The notes under the pieces were generated by a model, which ran no database searches, was not told the DNA's origin, and worked only from the letters and a program-made list of their open reading frames with translations. A stretch of DNA of 64,000 nucleotides, taken from Gemmatimonadota bacterium. Its GTDB lineage: Bacteria > JBHIER01 > G020348925. Shown in pieces: positions 4,344-64,000 of the stretch. The position numbers and the translations under genes are program-made. The number at the start of each line of letters is the position of its first letter. The first letter of the stretch is position 1. The stretch lies in assembly GCA_020348925.1 (NCBI GenBank), contig CP070758.1, forward strand, positions 2,830,218 to 2,894,217, read 5' to 3'.

Positions 4344-4377
4344 AAAAAAGCCGCCCTGGGTGTGAAACCAGGGCGGC
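4344..4377 (-). terminator. Rho-independent terminator
   Basis: A perfect 10-bp G+C-rich stem (GCCGCCCTGG at 4350-4359 and CCAGGGCGGC at 4368-4377) with an eight-base loop is followed on the minus strand by six T residues (4349-4344). It lies 26 bases past the stop of the 4403-6706 gene and should end that transcript. Confidence 0.93.
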
Positions 4378-7096: not shown

Positions 7097-8644
7097 CTAT
7101 TTCATCAAGAGCATGCGCCTCGTCGCTGTGAAGTTTCCGGCCGTGAGTCGACAAAAATAGACTCCACTGGCGACATCGGAGCCGTGCGCATCTCTCCCAT
7201 TCCACGTCGCTTTGTACAGACCAGGCTCCTTCATGTCATCGACCAACGTCACCACTTCCCGGCCTAACATGTTGTAGATCTTCAGCGTGGTGTGTCCGGG
7301 AGATCCACAATCCGGTATCTGATATCCGATATCTGTCGTCGCATTGAAGGGGTTCGGATGGTTCTGTTCCAAAGTGTATTCCATCGGAACCCTCGACTCA
7401 CCCTTGACAAGAGCCATAAATCGTGAAAAATCATCGGCCTCAAAGTACGGTTTTAAGGTTTCCAAATATTCAAGGATTTCCTGCGTAACTCCGGGGGCTT
7501 TCACCGAGGGCTCGCATTCTCCAACACCCAAAATGGCGCTCACAAGGCCAAACACATCGAGAAGGTCTATCTGGCCATCAGCGTTGCAGTCAGCGCGCTC
7601 GAGGGCATTACCCTCCAGGGATTCGATTTCCATGATATGATTCACACTCATCACCACATCCTGGACATTGATTACCCCATCACCATTAATATCTCCCGGA
7701 CGTTCTTCTAAGGCATTGGTCCAAATCAGCTTCCTTGCACTCATCGCTGTGGAGAAGAGGGAATCCTCTTCATTTACGCGACCGGTGACTGTCGCGACCG
7801 CACCGAGATTCTCGGTGTACCAATCGTAAATATACATGGTTATTGTGTCAGCATATACGGACACATATGAAAAATACACAAAGACGGAAAAATCCACCTG
7901 GGTTGTCTCGTAACGTCTCACTCGAAGGGCTTCGTACTGGCCATACGGTATCCTGACCGTTCCCCATCCATCGACCTGTCCTTCTCGTCGATACTCAAGA
8001 TCTATCTTCACATTCAAGGAATCACCTGGTAAAGGAGAACCCTCCGGATTTTCGATTCGAAAAGTTCCCGAAAAATCGGCCTCGTCGTTCCACGTTGACC
8101 CGTACTGCAGTGGGAGGGGTATCATGGTCAAAGGCGACGCGAGGTTGATGCCCAGTGGATTTCCGGCCGTATCCTGAAAACCGAATCCGAGGAAATCGAG
8201 ACTCCCCTCATTCACATTCATAAATTGGTATCCACTGGCGGTATCAAAACCCATAAGGTCCACCGTTCCGGTTTCTTGAACAAGATTGGCTCCGGGGAAA
8301 AGTTGGCTGAAAGGGGTATCCTCCAGCGCCACAATTCGCTCGACAACTGTGTCGGTCGTATCCGTTGTGAAATTCTGACTGAAGTCCCACAGTTGCGGGC
8401 CACCTGCCAAACCGAGATCTACAGGTATACTGTCCCCTGCCTCAACAGAATATTCACTTGTCACTCCCGGTATGGACGGGATCTCATCCATCGTAATTGT
8501 TATCTGGGCCTGGCTCGGAGACCAAAACGAGAAGAATCCCACGAGCACAAGAGCAATCATGGCGGCGTATTCTCTCATCACTGGAACCTTGCCCATCACA
8601 AGAGAACAAACTTCTTTTTGATAATACGATTTCAATCGATCCAT
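7097..8644 (-). CDS. Secreted dockerin protein with type IX secretion sorting domain
   Basis: A 515-residue exported protein. The ATG at 8644 is chosen over the upstream frame start because GAGGAGG precedes it at good spacing. The signal peptide is long, with the hydrophobic core MIALVLVGFFSFW ending near SQAQ. The central region (about 45-330) has no recognised family and looks all-beta. A dockerin pair follows (GDINGDGVINVQDVVMSV and ADCNADGQIDLLDVFGLV), then the helical linker (ILEYLETLKPYFEADDFSRF), then the CTD (HPNPFNATTDIGYQIP through GVYFCRL...MLLMK). The YPNPFNP box is altered to HPNPFNA, a mild deviation. It lies upstream of another dockerin/CTD gene on the same strand. Confidence 0.87.
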   Translation of the reverse strand: MDRLKSYYQKEVCSLVMGKVPVMREYAAMIALVLVGFFSFWSPSQAQITITMDEIPSIPGVTSEYSVEAGDSIPVDLGLAGGPQLWDFSQNFTTDTTDTVVERIVALEDTPFSQLFPGANLVQETGTVDLMGFDTASGYQFMNVNEGSLDFLGFGFQDTAGNPLGINLASPLTMIPLPLQYGSTWNDEADFSGTFRIENPEGSPLPGDSLNVKIDLEYRREGQVDGWGTVRIPYGQYEALRVRRYETTQVDFSVFVYFSYVSVYADTITMYIYDWYTENLGAVATVTGRVNEEDSLFSTAMSARKLIWTNALEERPGDINGDGVINVQDVVMSVNHIMEIESLEGNALERADCNADGQIDLLDVFGLVSAILGVGECEPSVKAPGVTQEILEYLETLKPYFEADDFSRFMALVKGESRVPMEYTLEQNHPNPFNATTDIGYQIPDCGSPGHTTLKIYNMLGREVVTLVDDMKEPGLYKATWNGRDAHGSDVASGVYFCRLTAGNFTATRRMLLMK

Positions 8645-31342: not shown

Positions 31343-32476
31343 TCAGTTCTGATTTGATTTTTTGAACTCACTTGGAGTCATTCCGGTCTGTTTTTTGAAT
31401 ACCTCGTTAAAGGTCGATTTTGAATTAAAGCCAACCTCGTACAGGATTTCCAGTATCGTCATGTCATTATTCGTCGGCTCCATCATGAGGCGTTTTGCCT
31501 CTTCAACTCTATAATTATTTATAAAATTAAAAAAATTCTGATTGAAGGACGTGTTGATAACCCGTGAGAGATGCCAACTGGGAATGGACAATTTCTCGGA
31601 GAGATCGTCGATGGTTAATTGTGGTATGAGATAGGGTTTCTGGGTCTCCATAAAATTCTTCAGTTTTTCTATATACTTTTGAATATCGGTTTGAGGTAGC
31701 CCTGAGTTCGCATACTTTTGTTTTCCCTCTATTCCCGAGAATATTTTCAGTTGATGTAAACCTTTAATAACCAAGATCGTTGTAAAAACGAGAAATATCG
31801 TTATCGAGAATAAATCCATGATACTGGTAACAATACCTACATGTGCATTCAGAAGGCTCAGCGTGCTCCTGGATACGACGAATACCCAGTGCAAAGAAAT
31901 AAGGACCAAAAGAGATACAACCCAATGTAAGTTGATCCTCTCCAGCGATGAATACAAATTCTTCAATTTTGTCTGATAGATATAGACTGTACGGAGCATG
32001 GCGACGATGTAGAAGAATATCTGGACAAAATTGGCAGTCCAGAACATTTTCCAAAAGTGGGAGACGAACGTATTTTGCAGAACGGTCAATTCCACAGCCG
32101 ATGGTGAGGATTGAATCTGACTCCGGATTATGGCCAAAATGACAATACCAGCAAAGGGAATGAAATGAACCGCATCTTTCCTTCTTAGCGAAAAATCTCT
32201 GTAGCACAGAGATTTTATATAGAAATAGAGCCAGGGTGCCAGCAGGAAAAACGCCGAACAGCTCACGTAATAGACGGATCGAAAATTCTCAAAGGAGAGG
32301 ATCCAGAAACGAAATGAGAACCATCGGACCATCAAAAACGATTTTGACAGCAAAAAAGCCACGAGCAGATTTTTGTTCGATCGCTTTCCACCATGCTGTC
32401 TCAGTATCACAACCGCCAACAATATCAACAGAAAGCCGGCTGTTGTGAGAACAATATCTGTAAGCAGCGCAATCAT
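31343..32476 (-). CDS. Membrane-bound AraC family transcriptional regulator
   Basis: The 377-residue protein joins a membrane sensor to a DNA-binding domain. The first 240 or so residues contain about seven hydrophobic spans (for example IVLTTAGFLLILLAVVIL, AFFLLAPWLYFYI and FIPFAGIVILAII). The C-terminal 100 residues are an AraC/XylS double helix-turn-helix, with SIPSWHLSRVINTSFNQNFFNFINNYRV and the second-helix signature ILEILYEVGFNSKSTFNEVFKKQTGMTPSEFKK. Such seven-span AraC proteins are common in FCB bacteria and are thought to sense a membrane or periplasmic signal. The target is unknown. The nearest candidates are the lipoprotein phosphatase gene upstream and the broken dockerin gene downstream, both on the same strand. 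Confidence 0.88.
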   Translation of the reverse strand: MIALLTDIVLTTAGFLLILLAVVILRQHGGKRSNKNLLVAFLLSKSFLMVRWFSFRFWILSFENFRSVYYVSCSAFFLLAPWLYFYIKSLCYRDFSLRRKDAVHFIPFAGIVILAIIRSQIQSSPSAVELTVLQNTFVSHFWKMFWTANFVQIFFYIVAMLRTVYIYQTKLKNLYSSLERINLHWVVSLLVLISLHWVFVVSRSTLSLLNAHVGIVTSIMDLFSITIFLVFTTILVIKGLHQLKIFSGIEGKQKYANSGLPQTDIQKYIEKLKNFMETQKPYLIPQLTIDDLSEKLSIPSWHLSRVINTSFNQNFFNFINNYRVEEAKRLMMEPTNNDMTILEILYEVGFNSKSTFNEVFKKQTGMTPSEFKKSNQN

Positions 32477-43814: not shown

Positions 43815-43846
43815 TGGAGCGTAGCATACCACGATGCTACGCTCCA
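43815..43846 (-). terminator. Perfect 13-bp hairpin, possible terminator or palindromic repeat
   Basis: Arms TGGAGCGTAGCAT (43815-43827) and ATGCTACGCTCCA (43834-43846) are perfect reverse complements with a six-base loop, 20 bases past the stop of the 43866 gene. A strong stem in that place suggests a transcript end, but no T-tract follows on the minus strand, so a Rho-assisted end or a palindromic repeat is as likely. Confidence 0.5.
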
Positions 43847-49294: not shown

Positions 49295-50182
49295 TCATTG
49301 AACAGGTCCGAAAATATGTTCGAACTCGCTGCTCTCCAGTATCTCTCGAAGCGAGGCGATAAAATCCGGTGAATTTTGAAAGGGGTGTTCTCGAAACAGT
49401 CTCCGACACTTCGAGGTTAACAAGTTACGAAACCGATGCTGACGTTCCCCAGAAATTGTCTTCACTCTGTACATATAATTTTGTTGAAACATGAGGTTTC
49501 CAGGATCAATGGAGCCCGAATCTAGGAGTGCTTTCATCTTCCGATCACAGTGACACGGGTTTTCGTCTTGAATGAGCCCACATTTTTCCCTCATGAAATC
49601 GTACAGTTTATTTCGCGCTCTGGAGAGCCTCTGACGGAAAAGATCTCTGCTTATCTCTAAAATTTCACTTCCTATTTTATCACTCACGCCAAAAACTTCT
49701 CCCAGAATGAAGGTCAATCTGAGTTCTCGGTTCAGACAGAGCAACATACCCATCATGCAATGAATATTGATTTCCTCCAAGAGTAACGGCATATCAACTG
49801 GTATTCCGTTCTGATCCGGCATATCCATGTCAGGTGTCCCGTCAATGCTCTCCCAATATTGATCGAAGGAGACCAATTTGTTCTCAGCGCTACTTTTTTT
49901 CATATTCAGTACGTGATTGGTCACTACTCTATAAGCCCACGTGCGAAAGCTGCTTCTTCCCTGGAATGTCGAGAGCTTCGTAATAATCTTGAGAAGTGCC
50001 TCCTGAGCAACATCCTCGGCATCTTGAGGATTGCCGACCATTCTCAAGGCAATGTTGTATATCCAGTTCTGGTGCCTTTCTACGAGTCTACCAAGGGCGC
50101 CTTTATCTCCCTTCAAGGCCGAAGCCACAAGCTCGCCGTCTTGAGAATCCCTCTTCTTATCCTCCGTAAATGGATTTATCAC
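49295..50182 (-). CDS. ECF-type sigma-70 factor with cysteine-containing C-terminal extension
   Basis: The 295-residue protein starts at GTG 50182, eight bases after GGGAG. Region 2 is about 28-97 (AEDVAQEALLKIITKLSTFQGRSSFRTWAYRVVTNHVLN) and region 4 about 138-195 (FGVSDKIGSEILEISRDLFRQRLSRARNKLYDFM). About 100 further residues follow, unlike minimal ECF factors, and hold Cys201, Cys210 and Cys212 (CGLIQDENPCHC), then helices. No anti-sigma factor gene is next to it, so the extension may do the sensing or regulate activity itself. The gene is transcribed into the beta-helix/dockerin gene at 46617, which could therefore be part of its regulon or a co-expressed partner. The link is by position only. 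Confidence 0.87.
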   Translation of the reverse strand: MINPFTEDKKRDSQDGELVASALKGDKGALGRLVERHQNWIYNIALRMVGNPQDAEDVAQEALLKIITKLSTFQGRSSFRTWAYRVVTNHVLNMKKSSAENKLVSFDQYWESIDGTPDMDMPDQNGIPVDMPLLLEEINIHCMMGMLLCLNRELRLTFILGEVFGVSDKIGSEILEISRDLFRQRLSRARNKLYDFMREKCGLIQDENPCHCDRKMKALLDSGSIDPGNLMFQQNYMYRVKTISGERQHRFRNLLTSKCRRLFREHPFQNSPDFIASLREILESSEFEHIFGPVQ

Positions 50183-50621: not shown

Positions 50622-50987
50622 TTACGAAGGGTGAGTAAGATGTTGCAGTGTTTCGAACACTTTTTCAAACTCACCTGATTTATCAAAAAAGAAGTCCGCT
50701 CCTGCCTCCATGCATTTTTTCCTATACTGAGGATATGGATAGTTCGTCAACATAATTACGACCGGAACGCCGTTCTGCTTTTCGATCTTTTGAAGCACAC
50801 CGATTCCATTTTCTCCAGGCATTCGAATATCCAAGATGACAACATCAGGATTCAATTTCTGTATGAGTGTCAGAGCTTCCAATCCTTCATGGGCCTGCCC
50901 TACTACCTCAATACCTTGCATATCAGACAAGTCCGAACTCAGCAGTTTGCAGAATAGTTCCGAATCGTCAACAATGACAACTTTCAT
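50622..50987 (-). CDS. Stand-alone response regulator receiver protein (CheY-like)
   Basis: The 121-residue protein is one receiver domain with all signature residues: acidic pair Asp7/Asp8 (VIVDDSE), phosphoacceptor Asp53 (VVILDIRMPG), switch Thr81 (VIMLTNYP) and Lys103 (FFFDKSG). There is no output domain, so it must act by protein-protein contact. It begins 600 bases downstream of the NarL-type regulator gene on the same strand. A partner kinase could be the PAS kinase at 52207, but nothing here proves it. Confidence 0.9.
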   Translation of the reverse strand: MKVVIVDDSELFCKLLSSDLSDMQGIEVVGQAHEGLEALTLIQKLNPDVVILDIRMPGENGIGVLQKIEKQNGVPVVIMLTNYPYPQYRKKCMEAGADFFFDKSGEFEKVFETLQHLTHPS

Positions 50988-51587
50988 AACAACAGCCTTT
51001 ATTTAAGCGCTTTTTGGTGAGCAGGCCTTTAACGAAAGAGACTCCCTCCGTCACTGAGAAACTCACAGAAAGAATCTCTATCAACACGTCTCAGGCTCCT
51101 CACTTTTACGACCATCAGAGCAGACTGGACATCTGAGCAGGCTATGGCAGGTAGAGGGAACATAAGCGGAAAAAATGGTAGGAATTGAATAGGTAGGTTA
51201 CTGTTTTGTCATAACCCATGCCAGTCACCTGCTCAGATTTCCATTGTCCATCTTCATAAAAATTTTGCTTTCTTCTTCAGAGCGCTTTTATCCAAAGCTC
51301 GAGAAAAAAATTAAATCATTCCCAAACAGAAATGCAATCAGAAATACCCTGATTTCTCACTTCGCAAAACCTTACGGGAGTTCTCTTCGCTGAGGAAGAA
51401 TGACGGGATCTAAGTCGCTCATTTTTCCGGGAGCTGTATCGGCTGGCATGGAAAGGCAACATTCGGAACAGACCAATTGTTCCATAGCATAAATCGAAAC
51501 TTCGGTTTGTACTTTTGGGTTTGTAATCTTAATCCTATTGCTTTTCGTATTTCGCGCTTCGGATTTCATTCGGTTGCAACTGGGATA
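50988..51587. other. Long intergenic region
   Basis: This 600-base gap lies between the lone receiver and the NarL-type regulator. It shows no supported gene. A 65-codon minus-strand frame (51372-51569) reads MKSEARNTKSN..., which resembles filler DNA with AAATCCGAA-like wording found between genes in FCB candidate phyla, so it is not called. Scattered GAG/CTC dyads occur, but none is long or perfect. Confidence 0.45.
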
Positions 51588-52241
51588 CTAATTTTCCAAA
51601 GAGGTGAGGCCTTCGCGGATGGCAAATTTAACGAGATCGGGGATATTGTGAATGTTTAATTTTTTCATAATTCGCTGTCGATGAGTTTCAACAGTTTTCA
51701 CACTGACATACAATAAAGCTGCTATTTCCTTGGTATTTTTTCCTTCAGCAAAAAGCTGAAGCACTTCACGTTCTCTCGAAGTTAAAAGAGAGAGAGGGGA
51801 CGTCTCAATCTGTGTTGTCATCTGCACATAATCCTCCACGACCACGCCTGTTATTTTCGGACTCAGATAGATTTGTCCGCCTAATACTGTCTCGACGGCC
51901 TGGGCAAGTTCCTCAAAAGCGCAGTCCTTCAGAAGATACCCGGAGGCTCCTGCTTGCAGCATTCCAGAAACGAAACGCTTGTCAGAGTGCATGGACAGGG
52001 CGATCACTTTTACATTCTGGACTGCATCGAGGATATGACGGGTAGCTTCCATGCCATTCAGATTCGGCATACCGATATCCATAATAACAATATCAGGGGT
52101 AAGCTCTGCAGCCAGCTGTAGAGCCCTTCGTCCATCTTCCGCTTCTCCGACAACCTCCATTCCGGATTGCTTGTCGAGCAGGCTCCGTAAACCGTCTCGC
52201 ACAATTTTATGATCGTCTGCGAGAAGGATTTTCGTCTTCAT
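51588..52241 (-). CDS. NarL/FixJ family response regulator
   Basis: From ATG 52241 (GGGAGG nine bases upstream) the protein has 217 residues. The receiver domain shows Asp9/Asp10 (LLADDHK), phosphoacceptor Asp55 (IVIMDIGMPN) and the usual Ser and Lys positions (ALSMHSDKR, YLLKDCAFEE). A LuxR-type helix-turn-helix follows in the last 65 residues (LTSREREVLQLFAEGKNTKEIAALLYVSVKTVETHRQRIMKKL). The gene start overlaps the end of the histidine kinase gene by 35 bases, so the pair is almost certainly translationally coupled. It should be phosphorylated by that kinase and bind DNA as a dimer. Confidence 0.93.
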   Translation of the reverse strand: MKTKILLADDHKIVRDGLRSLLDKQSGMEVVGEAEDGRRALQLAAELTPDIVIMDIGMPNLNGMEATRHILDAVQNVKVIALSMHSDKRFVSGMLQAGASGYLLKDCAFEELAQAVETVLGGQIYLSPKITGVVVEDYVQMTTQIETSPLSLLTSREREVLQLFAEGKNTKEIAALLYVSVKTVETHRQRIMKKLNIHNIPDLVKFAIREGLTSLEN

Positions 52242-54186
52242 TGCCTTCATCCTCCCTCTCACACCCATCGGATTTCAGAGGGGCTATCATAGTGACGTGA
52301 GTTCCCTTTCCAGGCTTGGTTTCCACATTGAAACTTCCTCTCAAATGATCTAATCGCTCCCCAATATTGAAAAGCCCAAAACCCTGAATCACACCCTCGT
52401 GATGTTCCATAACAGACATATCGAACCCAATACCGTCATCCAGAACATCGACTCGAATCGCACCGCGCTCTTTTTGAATGGAGATCTTCACATGTTGAGC
52501 TCGGGCATGTTTGACAACATTGATCAAGAGCTCTCGGACTGCTTGGAAGAGTACGACTCGGATATCGTCGTTCAGCAGTTTCGGCTGCATATCATCCTCA
52601 AATGAGATCTGGATGCCGTGTCGCTCCTCAATCTGATCTTTCAACCATTCCACTGCCGGCTCAAATCCCAACTCATAAAGAATGGGAGGACTCAAATTGA
52701 AAGTCAATGTTCTTGTCTGGTGAATTGTTTGATCGATCAAATCTTGAATCTCTTCGAGAGAAGTCTGGATCTCTGCTCCGTCGACGGTCTTTCTCAAGGC
52801 ACCCAACTTCACCTTCGCAACGGCCAACATTTGGCCGATGCTATCATGTAATTCTGTGGCCAGTTGTCGCCTTTCCCTCTCCTCTGCTAAGGATAGTTCG
52901 GATGCAAGAGAGCGGAGCTGCGCCTGATACACGAGAAGATTTTCCTCGGCTTTCTTGCGCTCGGTAATGTCTGTGAGAAATTTCAACGTGGCCGGCTTTC
53001 CCTCCCATTTGATTTTGACGCCATTGTTCTGCAGCCACCTGATGTTTCCGTCCTTCGTAATCGTTCTGAGATTGTAAACGGATGGCGTCTCCTCTCCCTT
53101 GAGTTTGTTGATATATTTCTCCATAACCATATCACGATCGTCGGGATGCAAGAAATCCACAAAAGGTTTCGAAACCAATTCGGCTGGAGTGTACCCTAAA
53201 ATTTCTGACATCTTTGGATTCGTAAGCTTTACGACTCCGTCCTGAGCCACAATGATACCTTCATTCGCGTTTTCGATCAGGAATCGGTACTTTTCTTCGG
53301 ACTCCCTCAACGATTTTTCTGCCAATTTCTGCTCAGTAATATCCACGGCGAGACCGTAAATTCTTTCGATTTCTCCATTCGGCGCACGTGAGCAAGCCAC
53401 TGAGATAATCCAATTGACCACTTTTCCATTCTTTCGAATATAACGTTTCTCCAACGAATAGCTGTCAATCTCTCCCCGAACAAGCTTATTAAATTGGACC
53501 ATATCTTTTTCAAGGTCATCAGGATGCGTTAATTCAGTCCAGTGCTTTTTCAGAAGTTCCTCTCTCGTATAACCGAACATATCACACATGCAGTCATTGA
53601 CATCAATCCAATCCCCATGCGAGGTTTCAATCGCAATTCCCACAAGCCCGAGCTCAAAGATTTTTCTGAACTGCTCTTCGCTCTCCCGCAATGCTTCTTC
53701 AACTTGCCGACGCTCAGTAACATCGTTCAGAATGCAGTGCGTCTGTTTAAAATTACCTCTCTCGTCAAATCCAACTCTGCCACTGAACGAAACAATAAAG
53801 TTGGATCCATCTTTCTTTACCATCTCATACTCCACGCCGTAAATTTCACCCAAAGCTTTAAATTTAGAGAAATTTTTTTTGAAACTGGCCACTTCTGACG
53901 GAGCCATGAATTCACCCAGCCATCTGCCGATGACCTCGTCGCGGGAATATCCAAAGACATCAAGCCACGCCTGGTTAACTTCAATAAGACAACCATTCTC
54001 ATCCAACGATTGATACCCGAGGGGAGCCCTCTCATAGAGCAGTTTGAACTGTTCCTTTCTTTCACGCAAGCTCACCTCTATCCTTTTGCGTTTTTCCTCA
54101 GATTTTTCTAACTCTACAATCCGTTGGCTCATATTATCCAACTCGTGTATCAACTGTAACTTCGTTTTCGTTTCATCTGATTTCAT
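52207..54186 (-). CDS. PAS-domain sensor histidine kinase (NarX/DegS type)
   Basis: The protein has 659 residues from ATG 54186 (GGGGG eight bases upstream). A short coiled-coil start is followed by three PAS domains (about 40-160, 165-290 and 295-415), each with the DITERK-like ending. A HisKA_3 dimerisation domain follows with the phosphoacceptor in TELHDSIGQ (His447). A HATPase domain has the N-box ELLINVVKHARA and the glycine loops DDGIGFD and GFGLFNIGERLDHLRG. There is no transmembrane segment, so it senses a cytosolic signal through PAS. It partners the overlapping NarL-type regulator. The ligand or cofactor of the PAS domains is not visible. Confidence 0.92.
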   Translation of the reverse strand: MKSDETKTKLQLIHELDNMSQRIVELEKSEEKRKRIEVSLRERKEQFKLLYERAPLGYQSLDENGCLIEVNQAWLDVFGYSRDEVIGRWLGEFMAPSEVASFKKNFSKFKALGEIYGVEYEMVKKDGSNFIVSFSGRVGFDERGNFKQTHCILNDVTERRQVEEALRESEEQFRKIFELGLVGIAIETSHGDWIDVNDCMCDMFGYTREELLKKHWTELTHPDDLEKDMVQFNKLVRGEIDSYSLEKRYIRKNGKVVNWIISVACSRAPNGEIERIYGLAVDITEQKLAEKSLRESEEKYRFLIENANEGIIVAQDGVVKLTNPKMSEILGYTPAELVSKPFVDFLHPDDRDMVMEKYINKLKGEETPSVYNLRTITKDGNIRWLQNNGVKIKWEGKPATLKFLTDITERKKAEENLLVYQAQLRSLASELSLAEERERRQLATELHDSIGQMLAVAKVKLGALRKTVDGAEIQTSLEEIQDLIDQTIHQTRTLTFNLSPPILYELGFEPAVEWLKDQIEERHGIQISFEDDMQPKLLNDDIRVVLFQAVRELLINVVKHARAQHVKISIQKERGAIRVDVLDDGIGFDMSVMEHHEGVIQGFGLFNIGERLDHLRGSFNVETKPGKGTHVTMIAPLKSDGCEREDEGNEDENPSRRRS

Positions 54187-54405
54187 CACTTTCACCCCCT
54201 AATATACGCTGTAATATTTTCAGGATGTATGGAGTGAAATTCTATCATTGAAAATTTGAAAACAATTCAAAAGAACTGTGATTTCCTCCGCGATCTCATT
54301 CTTTCGCACCTTTCGATTTAAGAACAGAGTCGGGTATTTGGTCCAAATAAGCATGAGAGAACCCTTGAATGGATCTCGTGTCGTAAATAAAGCCACAGAA
54401 TCCGT

Positions 54406-56127
54406 TTACACTTCATCGTTCGTTCTTCTTCTCTCCGTAATATCATGACTGATGACTTGAAAACCCGTCACTCTGTCACCATCTTTCAATAAACCGAAAT
54501 GTGCTTCGACAATACGCTCTGTTCCATCCTTTCGGATGAGATTGACTTCAATATGTTGGTAATGGTTATCTCCATTCAGAATGTCGTTGATGAACTCCTG
54601 ATATTTGGGTATATCCTGTGCCTTAAACATACCCATTTCTGAGAAATGTCTTCCGACAATTTCCTCTCTCGAGTATCCTGATATCCTTCCGACCGCAGCG
54701 TTACACGAGGTAATCATGCCCTGGATATCCATTGTTATTATACTGTCTGGAGCCAATTCAAACAGATCTCTATACCTTCGCCTGGAATTTTCTATCTCTC
54801 TTTCAACCTTTTTGCGCTCGGTGATGTCAATCGTTTGAATAACAACTCCTTTGAATTTCCCTTTACTATCTCTCAATGGTTCCCACGAGCTTGAAGCATA
54901 CCAGATCTCTCCGTTCTTTCTGATCGCTTTGTATTCAAAGTTCCTGCCCCTTATTCCCTCACTCAGAGCCCGATCAAAAACCTCTTTTGCCCGAAGGGCA
55001 TCATCCTTATGAACCCACCACACGAGTGTACCGACAAGCTCTTCATAAGAATATCCGGTGATCTTTTTACAATTCGGGCTCACATATTGGTTACGTCCAT
55101 GCTCGTCTGTTATTATGAGGAGGCTGGGGGCAACCTCAACGATGGTCCGAAAAAGCTCTTCCGACTCCCGCAAAGCACTTTCAACTCTTTTACGTTCAGA
55201 AATATCATGGGCAAAAACGGCCAACCGCTTAACTTCCCCCTGGGCATTAAATACAGGATAGCATGTTTGGTCAAAAATTTTCCCCTCACGCTCGTCCTTA
55301 TAGCGGACGGATTTTCCGGTTCGAACAACTTCATTGGCTCTGGCCATTCTCGATGCTACCAATTTTGGCGGTAAAATATCATAAACGCTCACACCGACCA
55401 AATCCTCGACATTCTGACCCAATCTCTCAGCCGCCACCGTATTCAGAGCAAGGATGGTTCCTTCAAGATCAAGAAGTATTGCTGACTCTGTGGGGGCATT
55501 TAACAGGGCTCGCACTGTTTCCATACTTTCACGCAATGCCCCCTCCGTCTTTTTCCGCTCTTCAACCTCCTGTTCAAGTTCATGTGTGCGTGCCTTAATA
55601 AGCTCCTCAAGATGTTCCCGGTGTTTCTTTAGTTCCCCCTCCATTCGTTTACGCTCTGTAATATCTACAAAGGCACCCATCATACAAATGGGCACACCCT
55701 TCTCATCAAAAACCATATTCGCCGAAACCTGGACGGTAAACAGCGAACTGTCTCTTCTTCTGGCTACCATCTCACCGGCCCACGTTCCCCTATTGCGTAA
55801 CCTCTCCAGAACCTCGGAAGCTTCCACCTGCGCGTGCCAAAAGCTTGTGGCAGGTTCCCCCAGAACATCCTCTTCTTTCTCGCACCTCCACATTTGTAGA
55901 AAAGATTCGTTTACGTAAATGATATTCCCCATAAGGTCAGCGAAAGCAATGCCATTAATGGACGATTCTACAGCGCTATCCTTCATCCGAATTTCAGCAG
56001 CCTCCCAATCGTTACTCCTTTGGGCCGCCATACGATCGTCTTCCCTGGCATCCAGTTCAGCAACCCGCTGGCGGAGTTCCTTTAATTCTTTAATAAGTTG
56101 TTCTTTAGTTTTGTTTTTATCTTTCAT
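54406..56127 (-). CDS. Multi-PAS protein without kinase domain
   Basis: The 573-residue soluble protein starts with a helical segment (KTKEQLIKELKELRQRVAELDARED). A PAS domain follows (about 45-160), a coiled coil (HREHLEELIKARTHELEQEVEERKK), and three more PAS domains (about 195-320, 325-445 and 450-565), each closed by an ITERK or ISERK motif. It ends at VISHDITERRRTNDEV, with no histidine kinase, GGDEF, EAL or other output domain. The stop is clean and the next gene (PAS kinase) starts 220 bases further on with its own PAS domains, so no kinase remnant lies behind it. It may be a sensor that pairs with that kinase. Confidence 0.88.
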   Translation of the reverse strand: MKDKNKTKEQLIKELKELRQRVAELDAREDDRMAAQRSNDWEAAEIRMKDSAVESSINGIAFADLMGNIIYVNESFLQMWRCEKEEDVLGEPATSFWHAQVEASEVLERLRNRGTWAGEMVARRRDSSLFTVQVSANMVFDEKGVPICMMGAFVDITERKRMEGELKKHREHLEELIKARTHELEQEVEERKKTEGALRESMETVRALLNAPTESAILLDLEGTILALNTVAAERLGQNVEDLVGVSVYDILPPKLVASRMARANEVVRTGKSVRYKDEREGKIFDQTCYPVFNAQGEVKRLAVFAHDISERKRVESALRESEELFRTIVEVAPSLLIITDEHGRNQYVSPNCKKITGYSYEELVGTLVWWVHKDDALRAKEVFDRALSEGIRGRNFEYKAIRKNGEIWYASSSWEPLRDSKGKFKGVVIQTIDITERKKVEREIENSRRRYRDLFELAPDSIITMDIQGMITSCNAAVGRISGYSREEIVGRHFSEMGMFKAQDIPKYQEFINDILNGDNHYQHIEVNLIRKDGTERIVEAHFGLLKDGDRVTGFQVISHDITERRRTNDEV

Positions 56128-56423
56128 CTATGTATCCCTCTCAGTCGATGATTCGTAAGATTTTCAGTACGAAAAATCCGTTTATTGGGAAATTCACATC
56201 AATATTATTCTATTTAGGCTTGATTGTCAACTTTTTTCTTGAGGACCTTCATGACACCGACAGAATGAAGATGGCGCGTATATAGGAAGCACGGTCACGG
56301 TGCTCGAGGACCTCATGAAGCCTTCGAAATTATTTCTGTTTTTCAGAACTGGCGTTGAAACAAAATCGGACCAGCCCGTGTCACATAATGTAAAAATATT
56401 TACATTACACAGAGGAGAGAGCA
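56128..56423. other. Divergent intergenic region
   Basis: About 300 bases between the divergent PAS-only gene and the DUF5916-like gene. It should contain promoters for both. The clearest element is the palindrome at 56386-56407. The rest shows no other recognised feature. Confidence 0.5.
56386..56407 (+). promoter_or_regulatory. Palindromic operator candidate upstream of the DUF5916-like gene
   Basis: Arms TAATGTAAA (56386-56394) and TTTACATTA (56399-56407) are perfect nine-base reverse complements around a four-base spacer. The palindrome ends 16 bases before the ATG at 56424, next to the AGAGGAGAG ribosome-binding site. Its place and symmetry fit a dimeric repressor site of the TGTAAA-N4-TTTACA kind. 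The regulator is not identified. Confidence 0.6.
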
Positions 56424-58709
56424 ATGAAAAAATTTTTCCAATCAAACCTAAAATTCTTAATAGCTTATCTCGTTGTGATGTCCATCGCTGGTGTTGAAAT
56501 TTCAGAGGGAGTGCCGTCCGCCCCTCTCTCATCTCAAGGAAACACCGGGACAGACGTGGGAACAAATGAAAATCCCTATATCGTCCCTCGCACCAATGAT
56601 GATGTCACTATCGACGCTTTCCTTAAAGAGGAGGCTTGGCAAAACGCTCTGGTTATCGATCTCCCCTATGAAACGGATCCCGGTGAGAACATTCCGGCCC
56701 CTGTAAGAACAGATGCCCTGTTACTGTACGACGAGTCCCATCTGTATATCGGGTTCAAGGCCTACGACCCCGACCCCAAATTGATTCGGGCGCGGTATAC
56801 GGATCGAGATCAGATTTGGAATGATGATTATGTGCTCATTTTTCTGGACACCTTCAACGATGAGCGAAGGGCCTTCGCATTGAGAAGCAATCCCTTCGGA
56901 ATTCAGGCGGATGATATCCGGCTGCCTAACAGTGAGGCGATTAGCTGGGATGCCATCTACGAATCACAGGGCCGGATTACCGATTGGGGATATATAGTGG
57001 AATTGGCCATTCCCTTTCATCAGCTCCGGTTTCAGCGTAACAAAGAAAACCAGATCTGGGGTATTAACATTATGAGGTTTTATCCGAGAAGCGTACTTCA
57101 TGAGTTGAGTGCCGTTCCAATCGACAGAAATAATGACAGCATCCTGTCTCAGTTTATTAAAATCAGAAGCTTTCAAGATGTCAATCCCGGGCGGAACGTA
57201 GATGTTGTTCCTTCAGTAATAAGCGCTCAGACTGACCACCGGCCGGACTTTCCGGAAGGTGATATGAGTAAACTCAGCAGGGATTTTGAGGCCGGTGTTT
57301 CGGTCCGATGGGGTTTCACCCCGAACCTCACGCTCAGTGGAACATTGAATCCCGATTTCTCTCAAGTCGAAGCCGACGCGTACCAATTGGACATTAACCA
57401 GCCTTTTGCCTTATGGTATCCCGAAAAAAGGCCGTTTTTCCAAGAAAGCTCGGACTATTTCACGACCCTGAAAAGTGCTGTCTATACCAGAGTAATGCGC
57501 GATCCCCTGTGGGGGGCGAAACTGACGGGAAAGGAGGACAAAAATACTATCGGTGCTTACATAGTGGAGGATGAAATAACCAACCTGATTTTCCCGGGAA
57601 ATCAGGGATCTTCATCGTCTTCTCTTGATATGAATAACACATCAGCGGTCCTCCGATATAAAAGGGATCTCGGGCGCAGCTATACTCTGGGGCTGATGGC
57701 TACGGATCGGGAAGGAAAGGATTATTATAACCGCTTAATAGGATTGGACGGGGATATTCGTATCACCAATTCAGATCGTCTTCGTTTTCAGGCATTGGGT
57801 TCCAGTACCGCATATCCTGAGAACATCGCAGGTGAATTTGACCAGGACCGTGGTAATTTCAAAGACTATTTCGTTGCTCTGGAGTATGACCACAGTGCCC
57901 GAAACTGGGGCTGGTGGCTGGATTATGATGATGTAGGTCCTCAATTCCGGGCCGATCTCGGATTTGTTCCGATGGTTGATTACCGGAATGTGGAAGGAGG
58001 CGTGAATTACACCTGGTATGGGAAACCTGACAGTTGGTGGTCCTATTTCTATCTGAGCAGCGAGCTGAACTATTACGAAGATCATGACCACAATCCCCTG
58101 ATGAAAAACGCTTCACTGAATATCTCGTACGGAGGGATCATGCAATCCCATGCCCATGTTCAGGGCAATACAGTGGAAGAATCGTATGGCGGCAAAATCT
58201 TCAATTTGACGAATTTCAGCTCCTGTCTCGGTCTCAGGCCCACAGGGAACATATGGTTCCACACTCATTTTGTCTGGGGAGACCGTATCGATTACACGAA
58301 TACGAGACTCGGTAACAGATTCCGTTTTGATCCCGAGATCGATCTGAATCTCGGTCGTCACTTGAAACTGGGACTGTATCATCTCTATGAACGGATGACC
58401 GTGGATTCGAAACATCTCTATACGGCAAATATCAGTCAATTGTCGGTGGTGTATCATCTGAACGTCCGTACTTTGTTCCGTTCAATTGTCCAGTATGTGG
58501 ATTATGCCTACAATGTTCAAAACTACACGACGGATATTGACCCGGAGTACCGATATCTCTTCACGCAGTTTTTATTCTCGTACAAGATCAATCCCTTTAC
58601 GGTTTTTTTCCTGGGGTACAGTGATAACCATTTGGGAAACCAATCGTATGATCTGACACAGCAGGACCGGACCTTTTTCGTCAAGCTGGGATATGCCTGG
58701 ACACGATAG
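56424..58709 (+). CDS. DUF5916-like outer-membrane protein with CBM9-type N-terminal domain
   Basis: The 761-residue protein has a signal peptide (MKKFFQSNLKFLIAYLVVMSIAGVEISEG). A CBM9/DOMON-like beta-sandwich follows (about 55-230), with the usual VTIDAFLKEEAWQNA start, YDESHLYIGFKAYDPD and DDYVLIFLDTFNDERRAFALRSNPFG. The remaining 500 residues look like an outer-membrane beta-barrel with alternating aromatic strands (WYPEKRPFFQESSDYF, a DUF5916 family signature, and many short strands to a final FVKLGYAWTR). In FCB bacteria these proteins are linked to carbohydrate or peptide metabolism, but no substrate is proven. It opens the plus-strand block, under an operator-like palindrome, and two FG-GAP genes follow closely. 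Confidence 0.85.
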   Translation: MKKFFQSNLKFLIAYLVVMSIAGVEISEGVPSAPLSSQGNTGTDVGTNENPYIVPRTNDDVTIDAFLKEEAWQNALVIDLPYETDPGENIPAPVRTDALLLYDESHLYIGFKAYDPDPKLIRARYTDRDQIWNDDYVLIFLDTFNDERRAFALRSNPFGIQADDIRLPNSEAISWDAIYESQGRITDWGYIVELAIPFHQLRFQRNKENQIWGINIMRFYPRSVLHELSAVPIDRNNDSILSQFIKIRSFQDVNPGRNVDVVPSVISAQTDHRPDFPEGDMSKLSRDFEAGVSVRWGFTPNLTLSGTLNPDFSQVEADAYQLDINQPFALWYPEKRPFFQESSDYFTTLKSAVYTRVMRDPLWGAKLTGKEDKNTIGAYIVEDEITNLIFPGNQGSSSSSLDMNNTSAVLRYKRDLGRSYTLGLMATDREGKDYYNRLIGLDGDIRITNSDRLRFQALGSSTAYPENIAGEFDQDRGNFKDYFVALEYDHSARNWGWWLDYDDVGPQFRADLGFVPMVDYRNVEGGVNYTWYGKPDSWWSYFYLSSELNYYEDHDHNPLMKNASLNISYGGIMQSHAHVQGNTVEESYGGKIFNLTNFSSCLGLRPTGNIWFHTHFVWGDRIDYTNTRLGNRFRFDPEIDLNLGRHLKLGLYHLYERMTVDSKHLYTANISQLSVVYHLNVRTLFRSIVQYVDYAYNVQNYTTDIDPEYRYLFTQFLFSYKINPFTVFFLGYSDNHLGNQSYDLTQQDRTFFVKLGYAWTR

Positions 58710-58784
58710 TTGAGGGTGAAACATTTACGGATCGTACTTGTCTCATGGTGCAGGTCGAAACACTATCACATGGAGGTCAAATTC

Positions 58785-60962
58785 ATGATAATGAATAGGA
58801 TTGTGTTCTCTCTCATAAGGTCCCCGTTTTTATGGACACTTCTCCCGCTACTTCTGCCGCAGATCTCCCACCCCACAACACTACACCCCATCTCTTTCCA
58901 GAAAAGTGAACAGGTCTTTCCGGGTGCGGAAACCTATCAAATTGCCCTCGGCGATGTGGACGGCGACGGTGATCTGGATGCCCTTTTTGCCAACATGGGG
59001 TTCAATTTCAGCGCCCTCTGGCTGAACGACGGCAGCGGGTACTTTGTCAACTCTGGCCAGCTTCTGACTCAGCAGGGGCACGGCGTCGGACTGGGCGACC
59101 TGGACGGTGACGGCGATCTCGATGCCTTCATAACCTGTGCCAACTATGGCAGTAACAACAACTGGTATTTTAAGCCGAGCAAAATATACTTCAACGATGG
59201 TACCGGTCTTTTTGTTGACTCTGGACAGGATCTGGGTGATACGGAGGACAGCGGAAACGGTGTGCATCTCCTCGATATCGACACTGATGGTGATCTTGAC
59301 GTTCATATTTATTACTATCACCTGGAGTACACGTATTATCACATAATTTATCTCAACGATGGGAACGGACAGTTTTATGAGAGTGACATCACCATTCCAA
59401 ATGGAACGGAGCTGGCTTGGGGCGATCTGGACGGTGACGAGGATATCGACGTGTTTGTGAGGGAGTTCGACGTCGGCTTCCGTACGATGACTAATGACGG
59501 GCATGGACTTTTTACTGAGCTATGGCAGATATCTGACAGTACGGTCGTGGCCGGTGATGTCGGTCTCGGCGATTTTGACGGAGATGGCGATCTTGATGCC
59601 CTCATTGGAACGGGGAACTGGGAGCGGAACGATTCGACGAAAGTTTTTTTCAACGACGGTACTGGCCGGTTCGAAGAGGGCGGTCAGAGGCTCAACCCAA
59701 CGCAGTGGGCAAATTTTCTACTGGGAGATCTGAATAACGATGGTACGGTGGATGCCTTCGTGAACAATATCCTCCTGCCCAACGAAGTATGGTTGAACGA
59801 TGGTCAGGGCAACTTCATCGATTCCGGGCTGCGATTGAGTGGAAATGAACCAAGCAGCAAAGGTTCCCTGGGAGACCTGGACGCCGACGGTGACCTCGAC
59901 GTATTCGTTTCCTATTTCGGACGAGGCTCCAGTTCGGTCTGGTTCAATGAAACGGAGCCCACGGAATTCTCTGGACCGTATGTGGGTCAGGATCCTCCGG
60001 GTCTGACTCCCGAAATATTCGCCCCGGGATTCATATCCACCGACGGAGACCACACCCGCGAATCTGATATCACGTTCTGGCCCGATGGCCTCGGATGCCT
60101 TTTTGCCCGTTACGTCGAGGGTATGTCTGACTATACTATCTATGAGACAAAGGAAGTGGATGGAATCTGGGTCGATCCCTTCGTCTCGGAGCTCTTTGGC
60201 GACTATGATGTGTTCGAGCCGGGAATTTCTCCCGACGGCCAAAAGATCTTCTTCTCGTCTACTACCCTGACGCCACCATCGGGACCATCGGGACAGGTGC
60301 TGAACATCTGGTACATCGAACAAGCCGACACTGGGTGGAGCGAGCCAATATATTTTGGCTATGATATCTATGCCTCAGCTACCCTTGACGGGACAGTCTA
60401 TTTTACCCAGAGAATCGGGGGAAAAGATCATATCGTCAGAAGGCGCATGATCGGTGGTGAATACCAACCTCAGGAGATCGTCCCTTCACCGGTTTATTCC
60501 CCATACGAGGACACCCACCCCTGCATCGCTCTTGATGAGAGCTATCTCATCTTCGACTCTGAAGACAGGCCGCGGATCAATGACTGCCCTCTCTTTATCA
60601 GTTTCCGTGATTCTAACGATACATGGACGGAGCCCGTCAATATGGGCAGCCTGATACCCATGAATGCCGCCCTGGCCAGGATCTCCCCTGACGGGCAATA
60701 TCTTTTCTTCAAAAGCGAAGGGGATATCTACTGGGTCGATGCCCGGATTATCGAACATCTGAAGCCTCATGAGACCTGCTGTGAGTGTGCGGACTGTAAC
60801 GAAGACGGCTCAGTCGATATTTTGGATGCCTTGTGGGAGGTCAACTGCATTCTGGGAATAAATCCGCCACCATGCTCCTGCGACTGTAATCAGGACGGGT
60901 CCAATGATGTTTTGGATGTCTTATGTATTGTCAATATCATTCTCGAGGGTTTCTGCCCATAA
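58785..60962 (+). CDS. Secreted FG-GAP/PD40 propeller protein with cysteine-rich dockerin
   Basis: The 725-residue protein starts at ATG 58785 (GGAGG upstream), with a signal peptide (IVFSLIRSPFLWTLLPLLLP). FG-GAP/VCBS repeats follow (about 45-410; DVDGDGDLDALFAN, VWLNDGQGNFIDSG and similar). A WD40-like PD40 propeller part comes next (about 440-660; PDGLGCLFARY, SPDGQKIFFSSTT, SPDGQYLFFKSEGD), as in TolB-like proteins. The end is a dockerin variant rich in cysteine ([19 protein letters not shown] and PCSCDCNQDGSNDVLDVL, closing EGFCP). No CTD. It lies 75 bases behind the DUF5916-like gene and is likely in the same operon. Confidence 0.87.
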   Translation: MIMNRIVFSLIRSPFLWTLLPLLLPQISHPTTLHPISFQKSEQVFPGAETYQIALGDVDGDGDLDALFANMGFNFSALWLNDGSGYFVNSGQLLTQQGHGVGLGDLDGDGDLDAFITCANYGSNNNWYFKPSKIYFNDGTGLFVDSGQDLGDTEDSGNGVHLLDIDTDGDLDVHIYYYHLEYTYYHIIYLNDGNGQFYESDITIPNGTELAWGDLDGDEDIDVFVREFDVGFRTMTNDGHGLFTELWQISDSTVVAGDVGLGDFDGDGDLDALIGTGNWERNDSTKVFFNDGTGRFEEGGQRLNPTQWANFLLGDLNNDGTVDAFVNNILLPNEVWLNDGQGNFIDSGLRLSGNEPSSKGSLGDLDADGDLDVFVSYFGRGSSSVWFNETEPTEFSGPYVGQDPPGLTPEIFAPGFISTDGDHTRESDITFWPDGLGCLFARYVEGMSDYTIYETKEVDGIWVDPFVSELFGDYDVFEPGISPDGQKIFFSSTTLTPPSGPSGQVLNIWYIEQADTGWSEPIYFGYDIYASATLDGTVYFTQRIGGKDHIVRRRMIGGEYQPQEIVPSPVYSPYEDTHPCIALDESYLIFDSEDRPRINDCPLFISFRDSNDTWTEPVNMGSLIPMNAALARISPDGQYLFFKSEGDIYWVDARIIEHLKPHETCCECADCNEDGSVDILDALWEVNCILGINPPPCSCDCNQDGSNDVLDVLCIVNIILEGFCP

Positions 60963-61026: not shown

Positions 61027-62340
61027 ATGAGGAAGAGGCACACGTGTCTCGCGATCCTACCGTTTGTACTGCTTCAGGTATATCAAGCTGAAACACAAAC
61101 ATACACTACGACCAGGGATTCATCAATCATTTCTTTCATCGACAGTGGTCAGATGCTTGATGATTTTGACTGCCTCGGCATCGAATTGGGCGATGTCGAC
61201 GGCGATTACGACCTCGATGCTTTTCTGACGAACGGTCAGGGCTCCAGCAAAGTCTGGCTCAACGACGGACACGGGATCTTTACCGACAGCGGCCAGAATT
61301 TTAGCGGCACTATCGGTCACGGCGTCGCCCTGAATGACCTGGATGCTGACGGAGACCTCGACGCCTACCTTGTCTTCAATGGATCCCAGGACAGGGTTCT
61401 GTTCAACGACGGGAGCGGTACCTTCACCGACAGCGGTCAGCGTCTCGGTAATGCCAATGACTGGGGGACAACGGTCTCCAGCGGTGATATCGACGGAGAC
61501 AACGATATTGATATCCTCGTCACGAACTATCAGCATCCGAACCGGATATGGTTGAACGACGGGAGTGGCCAATTTATTCCAGGCGACACAACCATAGGCG
61601 GGACAAACAGTGGCGCCATGCCCCTGGGGGATGTTGATGACGACGGTGATCTCGATGTGCTTGTGACCTATGTCAATAATCCTGACAAAGTATGGCTGAA
61701 CGACAGCAACGGACATTTTACTGACAGCGGCCAGAATCTGGGTGGTGTCGAAGGCTGGGGACACGCAGCCCTGGGCGATCTTGACGGCGACGGCGATCTC
61801 GATGCTTTTATCAACAATTCAGTCTACGGAAGTAAGGTGTGGTTGAATGACGGCTCGGGCACATTTACCGAACATGGAGAGTATTTCGGCGTACATACCG
61901 CCAATGTGGTCCTGGGGGATGTGGACCTTGATGGCGATCTCGACGCCTGCACCGTTTTCAGAATGGGACAGAACGATGTCTGGATTAACAACGGCACGGG
62001 CAACTTTACCTCAGCTGGTCCTCTTTTAGGCGTAAGGGGCGGTCTGCGCGTCTCCCTGGGCGACCTCGACAACGACGGCGATCCCGATGCCATTGTCGGA
62101 AACGAAGTCGGCTACGGAGGTACGAAGGTTTATCTCAACGAGACAAATGTGACCTGCTGTGACTGTGCGGATTGTAACGAAGACGGAACAGTAAATGTCC
62201 TTGATGTCATCTCAGTGGTCAATTGTATTCTGGGAATAACACCACTCCCCTGCTCCTGCGACTGCAACCGCGACGGAGCATACAACATCCTGGATGGCTT
62301 GTGCATAGTGAACGTCATTCTGAATGGTTCGTGCCCATAA
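61027..62340 (+). CDS. Secreted FG-GAP protein with cysteine-rich dockerin
   Basis: The 437-residue protein has a short signal peptide (MRKRHTCLAILPFVLLQVYQAETQ) followed by about seven FG-GAP/VCBS repeats (GDVDGDYDLDAFLTN, KVWLNDGHGIFTDSGQ and similar) that fill about 35-375. The last 60 residues are a cysteine-rich dockerin-like pair (CCDCADCNEDGTVNVLDVI, CSCDCNRDGAYNILDGL, ending NGSCP), almost the same as in the preceding gene. No CTD or linker is present. It has no PD40 part and is a shorter relative of the 58785 protein. It follows 64 bases behind that gene in the same direction and fits the same transcript. Function is probably binding. Confidence 0.9.
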   Translation: MRKRHTCLAILPFVLLQVYQAETQTYTTTRDSSIISFIDSGQMLDDFDCLGIELGDVDGDYDLDAFLTNGQGSSKVWLNDGHGIFTDSGQNFSGTIGHGVALNDLDADGDLDAYLVFNGSQDRVLFNDGSGTFTDSGQRLGNANDWGTTVSSGDIDGDNDIDILVTNYQHPNRIWLNDGSGQFIPGDTTIGGTNSGAMPLGDVDDDGDLDVLVTYVNNPDKVWLNDSNGHFTDSGQNLGGVEGWGHAALGDLDGDGDLDAFINNSVYGSKVWLNDGSGTFTEHGEYFGVHTANVVLGDVDLDGDLDACTVFRMGQNDVWINNGTGNFTSAGPLLGVRGGLRVSLGDLDNDGDPDAIVGNEVGYGGTKVYLNETNVTCCDCADCNEDGTVNVLDVISVVNCILGITPLPCSCDCNRDGAYNILDGLCIVNVILNGSCP

Positions 62341-62398: not shown

Positions 62399-64000
62399 AT
62401 GATCAGGATCTGTGCGATCTTTGAATACATACTCTTGTTACTCATCGTCGTCAGCAGCCAAATCTTCAGTCAACCGAAGTTTACGGATCAGGACCCGAAC
62501 TGCATAAAATTAGGTCAGGAATCTGAGATATTGGAGCCAGCAATCGATTTTTTGGAATATGCCCCTACGATCGACGGTATTCTGGATGAGACTGGAGAAC
62601 AATTGCCTCTGAGAGGATTCAACTATGTCAGATTTCATGCTGAAGAAACATTCTCTACCGTGCCCCTTCACTACAGGCTTGGCTATGGAACGGAATTTTT
62701 ATATGTATACGTAGAAGTCGATCATGATCAAATGTTTTACAACGACCGTGCCTTCCAGAATGGCGACGGATTTCAAGTGTTAATTGCGAAACCCCAAAAA
62801 AACGATGAGCGTACTGACGAGTTTTATGTCATCGCCTGTTCAGCGGTGAATCGAAAAAATCTTGAATGGACGAAGAGAATCATTTTTGTCAATAATATTT
62901 ATAATCTCTTTGTTCCTCTCAGCGAGGACGCAAAAATGGAGTATCATGATACGGGGGAAAAGTTCTCGTTTGAACTGTTACTTCCTTGGAAGGACATTCC
63001 TCCTTTTCATCCCTGGCTATCGGATGATATCGGATTTAACTTAAAATTTGTAAAGGCTTTTCAAGATCAACCCACCAGTGATTATTATGTCTATCCTGAC
63101 CGTGATATGGCACAAGAAAATAAGATGCCTCTGTATTGTCACTTGAAATTTGCCGAGCCTGAGATCGGAAACAATATTCAACATTTTATTCAACTGGGTA
63201 GAAATCATATTTATGAAGGTGATGAGTTTGGCATCCACATCGTTACATTGACATCGGAGAAAGTGAGGCAAACGGTCAATGTTTCAGTCTATTCCATTGA
63301 AAACGATCTCATCTTGAATACCTCTAAATCATTCTATACACAGCCGGGGCTCGATAGAACCTATTCGAAAATGGATGAGGTTTCTTCTCTCCCCACCGGA
63401 CAATACACCATACAATGGGAAACTGCGATTGATGCAGTGAAAGGGGAAGATCAACTGACAATTTTCAATACATTTCATTCAGACGAGATCAAATTGCGTC
63501 TGAGAAATTCGAGGCATCGGATATCGAAAGGAAGCTATGAGACTCTCTTCTACAGTATTGAAAGAGCACAAGATTTCTTAGCGTCCCTCAGACCGTATGA
63601 ATCGGCTCCGAATACACGCGACAGAATTGAGCAATTGGTGAAAAATATCAATAACGCCTCATCAGGAATAGATGTCATTGCAACACATACTGGCGTTCTC
63701 AGAAGAGCATTCCAGTCGAAAGTCGACAGCACCTACCAACCGTATTGCGTGAGAATTCCTGAACATATCGATCGCTCACGAAAATATCCGTTAATCGTAT
63801 TTTTACATGGGAGCGGATCGGACGAAACGGACTTGTTCGGGTTTTCATTTCTCAATAATGGAGAATGCATTGAATTAGGCCCCTTCGCCAGAGGTCGCTC
63901 GAATTTTTACTGCACCGACAATGCCCAGGAAGATATTGCGGAAGCCATTGATGCGGTCATCGAAAATTATCCGGTCGATACCGACAATATTATTCTCACC
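62399..64000 (+). CDS. CBM9-like/alpha-beta hydrolase (esterase-type) protein, cut by window end
   Basis: The frame from ATG 62399 stays open for 534 codons to the window edge, so the gene is partial. A signal peptide (MIRICAIFEYILLLLIVVSSQIFS) precedes a CBM9-like domain (about 55-240; APTIDGILDETGEQ and VYVEVDHDQMFYNDR). A middle segment follows, and from about residue 440 an alpha/beta-hydrolase core of the esterase or prolyl oligopeptidase kind: YPLIVFLHGSGSDE with the HGSGS oxyanion loop at 470-474, then a helix AIDAVIENYPVDTDNIILT just before where a GxSxG nucleophile should come. Substrate unknown; an exported polysaccharide esterase is possible. It follows the FG-GAP gene after 58 bases and may belong to its operon. 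Confidence 0.85.
   Translation, partial: MIRICAIFEYILLLLIVVSSQIFSQPKFTDQDPNCIKLGQESEILEPAIDFLEYAPTIDGILDETGEQLPLRGFNYVRFHAEETFSTVPLHYRLGYGTEFLYVYVEVDHDQMFYNDRAFQNGDGFQVLIAKPQKNDERTDEFYVIACSAVNRKNLEWTKRIIFVNNIYNLFVPLSEDAKMEYHDTGEKFSFELLLPWKDIPPFHPWLSDDIGFNLKFVKAFQDQPTSDYYVYPDRDMAQENKMPLYCHLKFAEPEIGNNIQHFIQLGRNHIYEGDEFGIHIVTLTSEKVRQTVNVSVYSIENDLILNTSKSFYTQPGLDRTYSKMDEVSSLPTGQYTIQWETAIDAVKGEDQLTIFNTFHSDEIKLRLRNSRHRISKGSYETLFYSIERAQDFLASLRPYESAPNTRDRIEQLVKNINNASSGIDVIATHTGVLRRAFQSKVDSTYQPYCVRIPEHIDRSRKYPLIVFLHGSGSDETDLFGFSFLNNGECIELGPFARGRSNFYCTDNAQEDIAEAIDAVIENYPVDTDNIILT

Follow-up and report, generated by a model that had tools for sequence, protein, structure and literature searches.

The window analysed here, a stretch of 64,000 nucleotides from a Gemmatimonadota genome (contig CP070758.1), ends in a plus-strand gene series headed by the gene of a 761-residue DUF5916/CBM9_1 protein (56424–58709; Pfam PF19313, 4.8e-14, and PF06452, 1.9e-10), which is the gene proposed to be repressed. 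It is followed by a contiguous frame for an FG-GAP/PD40/dockerin protein (58710–60962), by the gene of an FG-GAP/dockerin protein (61027–62340) and by that of an esterase-like alpha/beta-hydrolase running off the window (62399–64000; ORF at 8117–10087 of L040; Pfam Peptidase_S9, 3.1e-14, Abhydrolase_2, 1.2e-8, and Esterase, 6.2e-6), all on the plus strand and all likely to belong to the same operon. An initial annotation had described this content as a DUF5916-like operon with an outer-membrane protein, two FG-GAP dockerin proteins and an esterase, and the genes found agree with it.

DUF5916, which we take to be an outer-membrane beta-barrel domain, is a large many-copy family with seven matches in this genome. 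A 60% identical paralog (G000:C1:1167410–1169563, L016) lacked the palindrome described below; by eye, the end of the gene before this paralog resembles the FG-GAP/PD40 protein of the window. When 493 bases around the DUF5916 start were searched as DNA against 59 genomes, a match was found in this genome only, all the other genomes listed in the homolog and DNA searches being kin at the domain level only. A homolog from Aminicenantes (L037) reached 55% identity, and much of the stretch just upstream of it reads N. Before the operon, positions 50622–56127 hold a divergent cluster of a PAS-only protein, a PAS histidine kinase and a LuxR-type response regulator, to which a single receiver domain (50622–50987) and a sigma-factor-like gene (49295–50182) could be added by eye. 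No paper with the term DUF5916 was found in the literature searched.

A perfect 9-4-9 palindrome, TAATGTAAA-AATA-TTTACATTA, occupies positions 56386–56407 and is separated from the ATG at 56424 by 16 bases, within which a Shine-Dalgarno-like AGGAG lies on the plus strand (56413–56417). On re-reading, the arms, the four-base spacer and the distance to the start were exactly as first annotated. The palindrome is proposed as the operator O1 of a repressor named here BlaI-2; its centre is the 6-4-6 core TGTAAA-AATA-TTTACA (56389–56404), and neither feature is assigned a strand. Judged only by its symmetry, it does not exceed chance, and a 9-bp palindrome is nothing unusual for 64 kb: the window contained 4 perfect inverted repeats having arms of at least 9 and loops of 0–12, compared with 3.2 ± 1.3 in ten second-order Markov copies, and with loops of 3–8 the count was 4 against 1.6. 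Because several repeats of such size occur in the window, symmetry alone proves little. The other three (4350–4377, 32192–32216 and 43815–43846) have arms of 10, 11 and 13. What raises the palindrome above chance is the location of the only other perfect core in the genome and the behaviour of its relatives.

A tentative second operator, O2, was noticed at 56425–56440 (TGAAAAAATTTTTCCA; no strand assigned), with one mismatch to TGWAAA-N4-TTTWCA. It sits at the first codons of the window DUF5916 gene, where several relatives have theirs. It is a weaker candidate that may be due to chance and may represent no more than the codons of MKKFF; about 1.7 such sites are expected per 64 kb (six Markov copies).

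The initial annotation had proposed searching the genome for the same palindrome and looking for a regulator whose gene has a matching site, and had named random scatter as the outcome that would speak against a regulatory role. The full pattern occurred once in the 5.04 Mb genome (about 1e-4 expected from base composition), and with up to three mismatches at two places, compared with seven for a reversed-pattern control. The core TGTAAA-N4-TTTACA had exactly two perfect places (one for the reversed control), each before a gene start: the window palindrome and a site, reading TAGTGTAAAAAATTTTACACAA, directly before a gene of the BlaI repressor family, blaI-2, which is a regulator gene of the kind sought. 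The core ends 20 positions before the ATG of the DUF5916 gene and 18 before that of blaI-2. Two perfect cores against about 0.4 expected (P 0.06) are not rare by count alone, and the weight rests on their placement. Near-matches were not enriched, with 11 places at up to one mismatch compared with 24 for the reversed control. Eight of the nine one-mismatch sites overlap ORFs of at least 90 codons, and the ninth (L046) is found 31 nt ahead of an ORF of doubtful status. The contrast carries little weight, since the two perfect sites themselves overlap ORFs read in another frame or strand. A weak site of the D-type described below, before the DUF5916 paralog at 574662 (L215, position 960) was set aside, as it lies in a hairpin with runs of A and T. 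The genome-wide core searches covered TGTAAA-N4-TTTACA, and more regulon members may exist among sites that fit the degenerate TGWAAA-N4-TTTWCA.

The similarity between the two places extends into the putative promoters. Upstream of the palindrome, a candidate −35 element, TTGAAAC (56355–56361, plus strand), is shared with the blaI-2 promoter, and a candidate −10 element, GTGTC (56378–56382, plus strand), would follow 16 nt after it, as in the blaI-2 promoter; both promoters read TTGAAACAAA-N13-GTGTC plus the operator. Local alignment of the two 81-nt upstream stretches scored 39, whereas the best of 2000 shuffles scored 32 and the best of 3192 window stretches 26. With the palindrome left out, the similarity of the upstream part was of weak significance only (43 of 2000 shuffles were as good). 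TTGAAAC-N16-GTGTC, which presumably resembles ECF sigma-factor promoters, was found at five exact places in the genome (2750483, 2886572, 3540678, 4898824 and 4946696 of G000; L055–L059) against 0.64 expected, three of them before plausible starts and two without a convincing gene start; up to one mismatch gave 40 sites and 27 for the control. Given these counts and the two exact places lacking a convincing start, a promoter family around this motif is only a lead. On the plus strand, a sigma-70 promoter scan gave no hit close to the palindrome.

The blaI-2 gene lies on the minus strand at G000:C1:3540257–3540637, 654 kb from the palindrome, and encodes 127 residues. The protein belongs to the BlaI/MecI/CopY family (PF03965 Penicillinase_R, 90.9 bits against a cut-off of 22.6, E 9.2e-26), and MecI was its best match by sequence among solved structures (PDB sequences, 2.1e-5); it fell below the NCBIfam cut-offs for BlaI_of_BCL (42 against 180), CopY_TcrY (44 against 122) and MecI_of_mecA (26 against 250). 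The adjoining gene after blaI-2 encodes a 649-residue protein with a BlaR1-like M56 protease domain (PF05569, 2.2e-32), in whose translation HELAH is visible, followed by HEAT repeats. No extracellular penicillin-binding sensor domain was detected in it by Pfam at E 0.001, only HEAT-type or HEAT-like repeats after M56, and its score against blaR1_generic was 89 with a cut-off of 400. The genome has a second true BlaI gene (G000:C1:2254380–2254889; L043, L201), with Ser at position 42 of the helix-turn-helix (HTH) and an M56 neighbour. Upstream of it are a perfect TGCTAA-type site, TGCTAAAATATTAGCA, and a one-mismatch copy 61 bp away, and this BlaI follows the rule relating site type to helix type that is set out below.

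The search for homologs of BlaI-2 covered 290 genomes, and a further one covered 395 genomes from a single other phylum. About 200 bases upstream were read for 100 loci, 92 of which were aligned (91 excluding BlaI-2). The seven nearest relatives and one further homolog, 47–59% identical, carry Asp, once His, at HTH position 42 and are referred to as the D/H group, whose members come from another phylum than the window; locus L213 (the same as L128, Asp-type) was counted with them, and the Asn-type L212 was grouped with the Ser-type loci. The core was present upstream with at most two mismatches in six of the eight D/H homologs and in none of the 83 others (Fisher 4e-8), and with at most three in 7/8 and 5/83. 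For TGCTAA-N4-TTAGCA with at most three mismatches, the counts were 0/8 and 63/83, and among Ser42 loci fetched after this motif had been recognised the site was found in 31/39. The window operator type is of the same kind, a 6-4-6 dyad upstream of the repressor's own gene with a half-site that goes with the helix type. Two homologs outside the D/H group, L101 and L103, matched 10 of 12 positions of the D-type consensus TGWAAA-N4-TTTWCA, which was written after viewing several blaI upstreams (not that of L125, nor the target-gene sites). In the tree, the D/H rows and a single Asn-type row make up one clade (support 99/97). Because the D/H relatives form one clade, the p-values exaggerate how much independent evidence there is; that helix and site agree is probably the result of one event, and the specificity shift probably happened once.

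The neighbourhood of blaI was also compared by reading 7–12 kb around the gene for the eight D/H loci and for 18 of the 83 others. An M56 protein with HEAT repeats follows blaI in all seven D/H loci tested by Pfam (L188–L194). A DUF5916 homolog, defined by tblastn with the window protein at E up to 1e-5, was near blaI in 6/8 D/H loci and 3/18 others (Fisher 0.008), standing close behind M56 in the D/H loci and farther off within the stretch in the three others. Pfam confirmed DUF5916 in L188–L192; the frame of L193 is truncated where its contig ends and matches CBM9_1. Locus L194 has no DUF5916 within its 7 kb, and the Asp-type L128/L213 has neither a D-type site nor DUF5916. In five of the six D/H-linked DUF5916 copies the best match in this genome is another paralog, and only that of L193 is closest to the window protein.

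TGWAAA-N4-TTTWCA with at most one mismatch was found 12 times in 78 kb of D/H loci, compared with a single time in 216 kb of other loci; neither set contained the reversed pattern. By inspection, these 12 sites are spread over six loci with two in each: the first precedes blaI, and the second is at whichever gene comes first after M56. In L188, L189, L190 and L193 this second site falls among the first 20 codons of the DUF5916-type frame, counted from its first start codon. In L191 it is where a gene starts that, by eye, encodes HEAT repeats and stands ahead of DUF5916, and in L194 it immediately precedes the Shine-Dalgarno sequence and the ATG of a gene for a cytochrome P460 protein. L192 has no D-type site within one mismatch, and a looser AAATGTA-N8-TACATTT was seen at its DUF5916 start. 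L206, whose BlaI is Ser-type, shows a Ser-type site where its DUF5916 frame begins. Operator-like sites in the first codons, the signal peptide region, were noted at L188 7011, L189 3156, L190 2680, L193 583 and L206 10319, where the target frames, with presumed start codons, read EKIFS, EKFFS, DEKKFS, LKRFLQ or AKKLAF. Two further Ser-type BlaI loci, L205 and L207 (PTYSAVRS helix), have a DUF5916 gene nearby, and related loci show TGTTGA-type sites, a possible third operator class.

Three other explanations of the palindrome were weighed. It would be quite improbable that it acts as an RNA hairpin of the 5′ leader, controlling translation or mRNA stability. A 71-nt stretch does fold at −12.6 kcal/mol (z −3.35; none of 200 shuffles as stable), and the hairpin would be placed just before the Shine-Dalgarno sequence; however, any DNA palindrome yields a hairpin, the stem is A-U rich, no Rfam match was found up to E 1, and the blaI-2 leader folds more weakly (z −1.78; 11 of 200 shuffles as stable). 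A block of translation is made less likely because the sites in other genomes stand at other distances from the starts, beginning 73–121 nt before the end of upstream stretches that run 9 nt into the aligned protein, and even lie inside codons of coding frames, where masking of a Shine-Dalgarno sequence makes no sense.

The operator of another dimeric regulator, such as the LuxR-type response regulator (51588–52268) of the neighbouring PAS/histidine kinase cluster, is very improbable. This protein has a GerE HTH domain and is encoded about 4 kb from the palindrome, but the only other perfect core stands before blaI-2 and not near the LuxR-type gene, and across genomes the site type tracks the helix type of BlaI. 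A chance palindrome in an AT-rich leader would agree with the number of perfect palindromes in the window (4, with 3.2 expected) but leaves aside the core and promoter shared with blaI-2 and the same module elsewhere, and it was judged the least probable of all.

We therefore favour with high confidence the reading that the palindrome is the operator of BlaI-2, a BlaI/MecI-type winged-helix repressor that would also repress its own gene and the adjoining M56 gene via the same core. The dimeric regulator postulated at first would very probably be BlaI-2, as suggested by the core before its gene and by the site types of its homologs. A BlaI-2 dimer would sit between the promoter and the Shine-Dalgarno sequence of the DUF5916 operon and so block transcription; by analogy with MecI/BlaI, RNA polymerase would be stopped at, or just after, the transcription start. 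The membrane M56 protease, with HEAT repeats in place of the penicillin-binding domain of BlaR1, would sense a signal, and loss of BlaI-2, by cleavage by this protease or after its signal, would turn on both operons. What was observed are the sites with their rarity and placement, the match between site type and recognition-helix type among the homologs, and the blaI–M56/HEAT–DUF5916 neighbourhood in another phylum; binding, repression, proteolysis and the signal are inferred. The presence of HEAT repeats makes a sensor for beta-lactams less likely.

The closest known arrangement is the MecI/BlaI–MecR1/BlaR1 beta-lactam switch of staphylococci and Bacillus, which shares the BlaI-family winged helix, the adjoining M56 gene and a dyad operator at its own promoter and at a target gene. 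The published consensus for that operator, [AG]NATTACA[AT]NTGTA[AG][TG]NT (PMC5341023), can be aligned in the same 6-4-6 register as the window site. The window site differs in its half-site, TGTAAA, and lacks a TACA-N2-TGTA centre; the core TACANNTGTA reported for classical mec/bla/cop operators is absent, the palindrome centre being AAAAATATTT. The BlaI-2 system differs further in its protease, with HEAT repeats and no penicillin-binding domain match, and in its target, an outer-membrane DUF5916 operon, unlinked in this genome. The CopY/TcrY copper repressors, with the operator RNYKACANNTGTMRNY (PMC7253601), belong to the same protein family. They also resemble the BlaI-2 system in their 16-bp operator size but differ in the operator centre, and BlaI-2 falls below the CopY model cut-off. 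To our knowledge, CopY systems have no M56 partner. The Ser-type BlaI homologs (TGCTAR-N4-YTAGCA) share the family, the 6-4-6 operator and, in most loci read, an M56 match, but have another half-site and the recognition helix SYSAVR instead of the SYDSVR of the BlaI-2 type. Judged from these comparisons, the window operator would work like a BlaI operator, in a sub-branch with its own half-site and with a target of which the literature searched gave no example. Among the matches listed there, no paper addressed a BlaI–DUF5916 link or an M56/HEAT sensor.

On balance, we lean slightly towards a conserved envelope-sensing module in two phyla, BlaI(Asp-type)–M56/HEAT–DUF5916. Its M56 protease would sense through HEAT repeats instead of a beta-lactam sensor and would control an outer-membrane beta-barrel by way of an operator that has a specificity of its own. 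This operator would lie in the signal-peptide codons of the target in several genomes, and in the genome of the window the target would have moved away with the operator kept.

These results would provide the DUF5916 outer-membrane protein with a named regulator, site and target, so that control of the operon becomes testable with one purified protein, and they offer a case in which the operator half-site of a BlaI-family repressor has changed along with its recognition helix. They would tie a family best known from the control of antibiotic resistance to an operon for an outer-membrane protein, and suggest that BlaI/M56 switches may serve outer-membrane remodelling outside the beta-lactam setting.
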